NCBI GenBank assembly: GCA_028281825.1 | Contig: JANQJC010000142.1 | Location: 1 to 34,849 of the forward strand | DNA length: 34,849 bases | Reading direction: 5' to 3' | DNA from: Flavobacteriales bacterium | Lineage (GTDB): Bacteria; Bacteroidota; Bacteroidia; JANQJC01 | Shown here: piece by piece, positions 7,872 to 8,920 of the stretch | How positions within the stretch are numbered: position 1 is the stretch's first letter | How the letters are laid out: each line of letters begins with the position of its first letter | Made by a program: the position numbers and the translations under genes | The notes under the pieces: generated by a model | Databases searched by the model: none | Told to the model about the DNA's origin: nothing | Seen by the model: the letters and a program-made list of their open reading frames with translations, nothing else

Positions 7872-8726
7872 ATGAATCAAGAGAAAACAGTTAGGGGAAG
7901 CAATGGCTGGTTGGCATTATTCCTAATAATATCCATCATGGGGGCTACTGTTTATGGTATCATTCTCACTGAACTCCCTATACTTATAGTAATATCAGCC
8001 ATAGCAGGCTTTTGTGCTAAAGGTTTTGTAATTGTAAACCCCAACGAGTCCAGTGTACTAGTCTTCTTCGGTAAATATGTTGGCACTATCAAGGCCAATG
8101 GTTTCTTTTGGGTAAACCCCTTATACACTAAGAGAAAAATCTCGCTAAGGGCAAGAAACCTGGATAGCCAACACATCAAAGTGAATGATAAACTTGGCAA
8201 CCCAATAATGATTGGTGTGGTATTGGTGTGGAGAGTAGAAAACACCTACAAAGCAGCTTTTGAAGTGGATGATTTCCGAAATTTCGTTACAGTTCAAAGT
8301 GAATCAGCCGTAAGGAAACTGGCTGGCAGCTACCCCTATGACAAGTTTGATGATGAAGATGCTGACATCTCCCTTCGCGACGGTGGAGATGAAGTAGACC
8401 AAGTGCTTGAAACCGAATTACAAAGCCGTGTGGAGATAGCTGGTATAAAAGTAATGGAAGCCCGCATCAGCCACTTGGCCTATGCCCAGGAAATAGCAGG
8501 AGCTATGCTTCAAAGGCAGCAAGCCACAGCCATTGTTGCCGCAAGGGAACAAATTGTGGAAGGTGCAGTAGGTATGGTAGAAATGGCCTTGAAAGAGCTT
8601 TCAAACAAGTCCATCATTGAGCTGGACGATGAGAAAAAAGCTGCGATGGTGAGCAACTTAATGGTAGTTTTGTGTTCTGATAAAGCTGCTAACCCGGTAA
8701 TTAATACAGGCACTTTACACCAATAA
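7872..8726 (+). CDS. SPFH/Band 7 domain membrane protein
   Basis: A 284-residue protein of the stomatin-prohibitin-flotillin-HflK/C superfamily. Two hydrophobic helices occupy about residues 13-55 (WLALFLIISIMGATVYGIIL and LPILIVISAIAGFCAKGFVIV). The SPFH domain starts right after the second helix (NPNESSVLVFFGKYVGTIKANGFFWVNP) and runs to about residue 200, with the family signature SRVEIAGIKVMEARISHLAYAQEIAGAMLQRQQATAIVAAR. The remainder is a short helical tail. Such proteins oligomerise on the membrane and organise microdomains or protect quality-control proteases. This subgroup, with a ribbon-helix-helix gene directly downstream, is widespread, but its function is not known to me. The next gene starts 17 bases after the stop. 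Confidence 0.9.
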   Translation: MNQEKTVRGSNGWLALFLIISIMGATVYGIILTELPILIVISAIAGFCAKGFVIVNPNESSVLVFFGKYVGTIKANGFFWVNPLYTKRKISLRARNLDSQHIKVNDKLGNPIMIGVVLVWRVENTYKAAFEVDDFRNFVTVQSESAVRKLAGSYPYDKFDDEDADISLRDGGDEVDQVLETELQSRVEIAGIKVMEARISHLAYAQEIAGAMLQRQQATAIVAAREQIVEGAVGMVEMALKELSNKSIIELDDEKKAAMVSNLMVVLCSDKAANPVINTGTLHQ

Positions 8727-8730
8727 ATGC

Positions 8731-8740
8731 AGGAGGTGAT
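8731..8740 (+). promoter_or_regulatory. Perfect Shine-Dalgarno sequence before the RHH gene
   Basis: AGGAGGTGAT at 8731-8740 is complementary over its full ten bases to the canonical 3' end of 16S rRNA (ATCACCTCCT). Its AGGAGG core lies seven bases before the ATG at 8744, an ideal spacing. No other start codon in this window has anything close to it, as expected for Bacteroidota, in which Shine-Dalgarno pairing is normally not used. Confidence 0.85.
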
Positions 8741-8743
8741 AAT

Positions 8744-8920
8744 ATGGCTAAAAAAAAGCCATTTGTATTAAGGCTTGATCCTGAAATGCTCAAAGCTGTT
8801 GAAAAATGGGCTGCTGATGAATTCAGGAGCACCAACGGGCAGTTGGAATATGTAATCAATGAAGCGCTGAAAAAAGCGGGTAGAAAAAAGGCGGGCAAAG
8901 ATTCTTCTACTGAAAAATAA
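8744..8920 (+). CDS. Small ribbon-helix-helix (Arc-like) DNA-binding protein
   Basis: A 58-residue basic protein. Residues 5-11 (KPFVLRL) form the expected beta strand, and DPEMLKAVEKWAADEF and NGQLEYVINEALKKAGR form the two helices of an Arc/MetJ-type ribbon-helix-helix fold. A lysine-rich tail follows. RHH proteins bind DNA as dimers through the paired strands. This one is placed 17 bases after the SPFH gene and is probably co-transcribed with it. It may regulate the pair or act as a nucleoid- or membrane-associated accessory. The ATG at 8744 is fixed by a perfect Shine-Dalgarno sequence. Its last 14 bases overlap the convergent secreted-protein gene (8907-8920). An antitoxin role is possible for the fold, but no toxin is visible, because the neighbour is an SPFH protein. 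Confidence 0.85.
   Translation: MAKKKPFVLRLDPEMLKAVEKWAADEFRSTNGQLEYVINEALKKAGRKKAGKDSSTEK

Follow-up and report, generated by a model that had tools for sequence, protein, structure and literature searches.

In Flavobacterium, the anti-Shine-Dalgarno (anti-SD) sequence is held in a pocket formed by bS21, bS18, and bS6, and ribosomes free of bS21 prefer mRNAs with strong SDs (PMC9976891). An extended SD on rpsU, together with autoregulation by bS21, has been described in Flavobacterium johnsoniae and other Bacteroidota (McNutt et al. 2023, PMC9976891). In F. johnsoniae, adding AGGAGGU to an SD-less reporter suffices for a >2-fold increase in its output with a bS21 that is missing the C terminus (PMC9976891). 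Other SD-bearing genes of Bacteroidia include rpsR, rpsB, rpsE, and rplI, among others, with rpsR at -7 to -14 kcal/mol (PMC9976891). Published work on Flavobacteriales concluded that rpsU is the only gene under SD-dependent control in that group.

We analyzed a 34,849-nt stretch of DNA from an uncultured Flavobacteriales bacterium, referred to here as the window, which is one contig (C103) of a 4.02-Mb genome assembly (G000; 144 contigs, 96% complete). The initial annotation of the window had claimed a perfect ten-base SD before a small ribbon-helix-helix (RHH) gene and had proposed that this gene is read by a special ribosome state or responds to bS21. In a genome with the rpsU/bS21 features, a nonribosomal gene whose SD surpasses that of rpsU would be a natural second target of such control and makes the rpsU-only limit testable. 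Since the SD proved not to be conserved, RHH remains only a candidate for addition to the strong-SD genes of Bacteroidia.

An extended SD precedes the RHH gene

The RHH gene lies directly downstream of an SPFH/Band 7 gene (Table 1). Its 58-residue product scored 25.0 bits against its Pfam family (curated cutoff, 20.4), and the SPFH partner scored 77.9 bits against its own (cutoff, 23.6). SPFH ends with a stop codon at 8724-8726 and RHH begins with an ATG at 8744-8746, so that AGGAGGTGAT falls within the 17-nt noncoding spacer between them; the surrounding sequence reads ...CACCAATAAatgcAGGAGGTGATaatATGGCTAAAAAAAAGCC..., with the TAA that ends SPFH, then AGGAGGTGAT, and then the RHH start. We looked for a correctly spaced helix of at least 9 bp and below -13 kcal/mol and found one of 10 bp and about -19.9 kcal/mol, with the AGGAGG core ending 7 nt 5' of the ATG. 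This energy comes from a contiguous, no-bulge nearest-neighbor calculation against an assumed canonical anti-SD, not from free_scan of PMC9976891.

Table 1. Features of the SPFH-RHH locus (positions in the window) and sites at other genes and loci
Feature	Position	Strand	Remarks
SPFH/Band 7 gene, 284 aa, directly upstream of RHH	7872..8726	+	PF01145
17-nt noncoding spacer holding the SD, SPFH stop to RHH start	8727..8743	+	
Shine-Dalgarno site AGGAGGTGAT	8731..8740	+	Perfect 10-bp complement of canonical 16S anti-SD
Arc-like RHH gene, 58 aa	8744..8920	+	Pfam PF03869
AGGAGGT genuine starts, genome-wide			RHH, rpsU, sufS, Tat-signal-like protein (L375), plasmid-type replication protein (L353), lipoprotein (L351), ECF sigma factor (L385)
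Cyclobacteriaceae loci with GGAGG before RHH			L066, L076, L178, L183, L191, L198, L199, L207, L069

The site was thus as first described, and the accompanying claims that the window has no comparable start elsewhere and that the SPFH partner lacks such a signal also held. There was no further zero-mismatch copy of AGGAGGTGAT in the window. Among the first starts of its 32 likely genes the next strongest SD was -10.8 kcal/mol, or -12.4 kcal/mol when internal starts were allowed, and the SPFH start had none (-3.0 kcal/mol). RNA folding over the RHH start was no better than that of shuffled sequences (z 0.05), and we rejected start-region RNA structure as a switch on these grounds.

The genome has features of the bS21 mechanism

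The genome has a single copy of bS21, with the anti-SD-contacting Tyr at residue 54. Its rpsU gene carries an extended SD (AAAGGAGGT; aaaAGGAGGTataaactattATG, AAAGGAGGU) of -16.2 kcal/mol at a spacing of 11 nt, weaker than that of RHH. Given the rpsU SD and Tyr54, the published mechanism of anti-SD sequestration and bS21 control plausibly operates in this organism. Both the 16S gene and GGATCACCTCCT were absent from the contigs of the assembly, and the anti-SD is therefore an assumed one; a 16S 3' end of ...GGAUCACCUCCUUU would fit pairing with AGGAGGTGAT.

RHH resembles the rpsU/bS21 autoregulatory system in its pairing (within the range of 9 to 13 bp and below -13 kcal/mol), in the presence of Tyr54 and an SD on rpsU itself, and in its otherwise SD-poor genome. 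RHH departs from that system in being nonribosomal and in having an SD that is not conserved among its orthologues, and a closed feedback loop is therefore not implied. RHH also shares a strong SD in a mostly SD-less genome with the reported rpsR, rpsB, rpsE, rplI, and other genes. Those genes, in contrast, are ribosomal, and we saw no SD at rpsR, rpsF, or rplI of this genome.

Strong SDs are rare but not unique to RHH

We examined SD background in a sample of about 800 kb containing 612 genes of at least 100 aa. Moderate SDs were scarcer than in mock windows (24 versus 34 at <= -10 kcal/mol). Because this depletion extended up to -12 kcal/mol, general SD use in the lineage was rejected. The extreme tail was slightly fuller, with 4 sampled genes versus 0 mock windows at <= -14 kcal/mol. 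The RHH SD is not the only strong one in the genome: a few further genes, among them rpsU, hpf, sufB, and sufS, have SDs of about -13 to -16 kcal/mol. It nevertheless exceeded every first start in the 612 genes and all other AGGAGGT starts genome-wide, and no stronger SD was found at a genuine start in this genome, which is SD-poor and has the rpsU/bS21 features.

The gene read as hpf (hibernation factor; L233:16204, contig C16) lies two genes after rpsU, about 1.2 kb on, and has a strong SD (agaaaggagagaactATG, -15.6 kcal/mol), its start carrying agaaaggag. Strong SDs are also present at two genes lying near each other on contig C78, read as sufB (L255:13868; aaggaggcgaaATG) and sufS (L255:17916; aggaggtagttATG).

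Exact copies of AGGAGGTGAT numbered 10 genome-wide, versus 1 for the reversed control; nine lay inside open reading frames (ORFs), and only the RHH copy preceded a genuine start. The pattern AGGAGGT-N2..11-ATG matched 54 times (58 for the reversed control), and when all 54 matches were classified, 7 were genuine starts (Table 1). The names given to these genes are readings of their sequences, except for rpsU, which was found by its Pfam model. RHH had the longest match of the seven and alone extended to AGGAGGTGAT.

We estimated chance expectations with a first-order model of start regions for about 3,300 to 3,600 genes. The exact AGGAGGTGAT was expected before 0.012 to 0.024 starts per genome, any perfect Watson-Crick 10-mer of the extended SD before 0.16 to 0.24, and any helix of <= -19.5 kcal/mol with G-U pairs allowed before about 0.5 to 0.9. 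With about 0.2 to 0.9 expected per genome, one such site is unremarkable on its own: although few windows would contain one, a whole genome could have one without clearly exceeding chance. The energy model likewise expected about 2.4 starts of <= -16 kcal/mol per genome. AGGAGGT at genuine starts was enriched (7 versus 0.9 to 1.5 expected; p about 4e-5 to 8e-4), a hint of selection on some of the strong SDs.

The SD is largely absent from RHH orthologues

We found RHH in 102 of 395 Bacteroidia genomes. The SPFH gene was nearly always upstream, either adjacent to RHH or separated from it by one or two small genes. Across 242 orthologous RHH loci, some of them duplicated between collections, a strong site (<= -13 kcal/mol) was present at about 15, and AGGAGGT preceded RHH at none. 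Lack of conservation in orthologues had been named beforehand as a refuting result, and the SD was indeed largely not kept at the same gene in relatives. G000 was the only genome of its family and order compared, the orthologues coming from beyond its order; it is an isolated lineage within its class. Orthologue energies were obtained by the contiguous-helix calculation in place of duplexfold, whose first energies allowed bulges and the GGAUC palindrome; L131 and L134, which had appeared as strong-SD orthologues, were false matches of this kind.

Most of the strong orthologue sites come from a single Cyclobacteriaceae clade (Algoriphagus, Rhodonellum, and Mongoliitalea), in which GGAGG, a shorter SD than AGGAGGTGAT, lies about 5 to 9 nt before the RHH start. 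Of the 17 clade loci, which share ancestry and are not phylogenetically independent, 9 had it at RHH, and none of their 99 other genes did. The motif usually overlaps the final codons of an intervening gene, in two reading frames. A wider Cyclobacteriaceae sample gave 4 of 61.

As a control, we ran rpsU from 29 of the same genomes through the same pipeline. An rpsU SD of <= -13 kcal/mol, pairing over up to 11 bp, was found in 8 of the 29, so the method does detect conserved SDs. Only one of these eight genomes (G094) had an RHH site of <= -13 kcal/mol; at <= -10 kcal/mol there were three, all of one genus (G094, G126, and G266), and five had none. The strongest RHH site elsewhere was in G128, a genome without an SD on rpsU. 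A strong SD on rpsU is no predictor of one on RHH, and in general the two do not go together.

Interpretation of the RHH SD

We consider it somewhat more probable than not that this is a genuine, well-placed extended SD, specific to its lineage and showing no evidence of selection, which would make RHH sensitive to bS21 by the known mechanism. On bS21-poor ribosomes, the SD would raise translation of the RHH cistron, and the upstream, SD-less SPFH cistron would stay unchanged. Because AGGAGGU alone confers bS21 sensitivity on a reporter, sensitivity of RHH is a reasonable mechanistic prediction, although we infer it, like the organism's anti-SD sequence and its sequestration. Most likely, drift within the 17-nt spacer produced the site, which is tolerated. 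Of the special ribosome state and bS21 response first proposed, what stands is the strongest SD, the rpsU SD, Tyr54, and the reporter precedent (PMC9976891); selected or conserved special control of RHH is not supported, the SD being unconserved and the rpsU SD not predictive. With orthologues lacking the site and chance able to yield it, RHH is a testable lineage-specific oddity, not a demonstrated new control system. The AGGAGGT excess at genuine starts and the shorter SD at RHH in the Cyclobacteriaceae clade count against this explanation.

Those same two observations argue for a small, selected set of strong-SD genes (rpsU, hpf, sufB, sufS, the ECF sigma factor, and RHH) whose translation rises jointly when ribosomes lack bS21. 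The four genes at <= -14 kcal/mol with no mock counterpart, an SD on RHH stronger than on rpsU, the agaaaggag of hpf two genes after rpsU, and the fact that the clade with GGAGG before RHH includes genomes with an rpsU SD all fit such a set. We nevertheless regard it as unlikely: seven of the eight genomes with a strong rpsU SD have no strong RHH site, the best RHH site elsewhere (G128) occurs without an rpsU SD, chance alone could supply the starts of <= -16 kcal/mol, no common function is obvious among the other members (one resembles a plasmid-type replication protein), and the Cyclobacteriaceae sites are mostly coding sequence in related genomes. In this reading, unfinished or damaged ribosomes would be examples of the bS21-less state, and the RHH protein would be its transcriptional output. 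The broader proposition that bS21-free ribosomes control genes beyond rpsU in some Bacteroidia, including the SPFH-coupled RHH, and convert bS21 loss into a transcriptional response appears less probable still.

An SD with no regulatory role, matched by chance and ignored by complete ribosomes with a sequestered anti-SD, would agree with the whole-genome expectation, with the lack of AGGAGGT in every orthologue, and with the location of nine of the ten genomic copies inside ORFs. We think this improbable too, because an artificial strong SD altered the response to bS21 loss in F. johnsoniae (PMC9976891), and a site as strong as that of RHH would thus probably have some effect if bS21 levels vary. 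In many relatives the upstream stop lies about -11 to +10 nt from the RHH start, and here the SD fills a 17-nt gap, as it would if it aided reinitiation by ribosomes that have just finished SPFH, in place of the stop-start overlap. That role is very unlikely: relatives with gaps of 14 to 46 nt (L055, L077, L078, L086, L332, and L333) have no strong SD, and ribosomes at termination would be expected to have bS21 bound and their anti-SD sequestered.

The SPFH-RHH module

The RHH protein resembles Arc-type repressors (PF03869; phage P22 Arc structures) in its family match, its length of 58 aa, its FxLR strand, and its RSxN motif. It differs from them in a conserved EKWAADEFRS core and in its persistent linkage to SPFH genes. 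We found no paper on SPFH proteins paired with Arc-family partners. Acquisition of RHH from an SD-using phylum is unlikely, as the best 80 RHH homologues (GTDB genomes) were titled Bacteroidota or subordinate taxa, the sole exception being one metagenome-assembled genome titled only "bacterium." No well-supported sister for the window emerged from an SPFH tree. The locus (7872-8920) and its orthologues form a conserved Bacteroidia module, with the SPFH gene first and the Arc-like RHH gene last. Between them there is often a ~165-aa two-TM-like protein and/or a 50- to 60-aa protein (no Pfam match).
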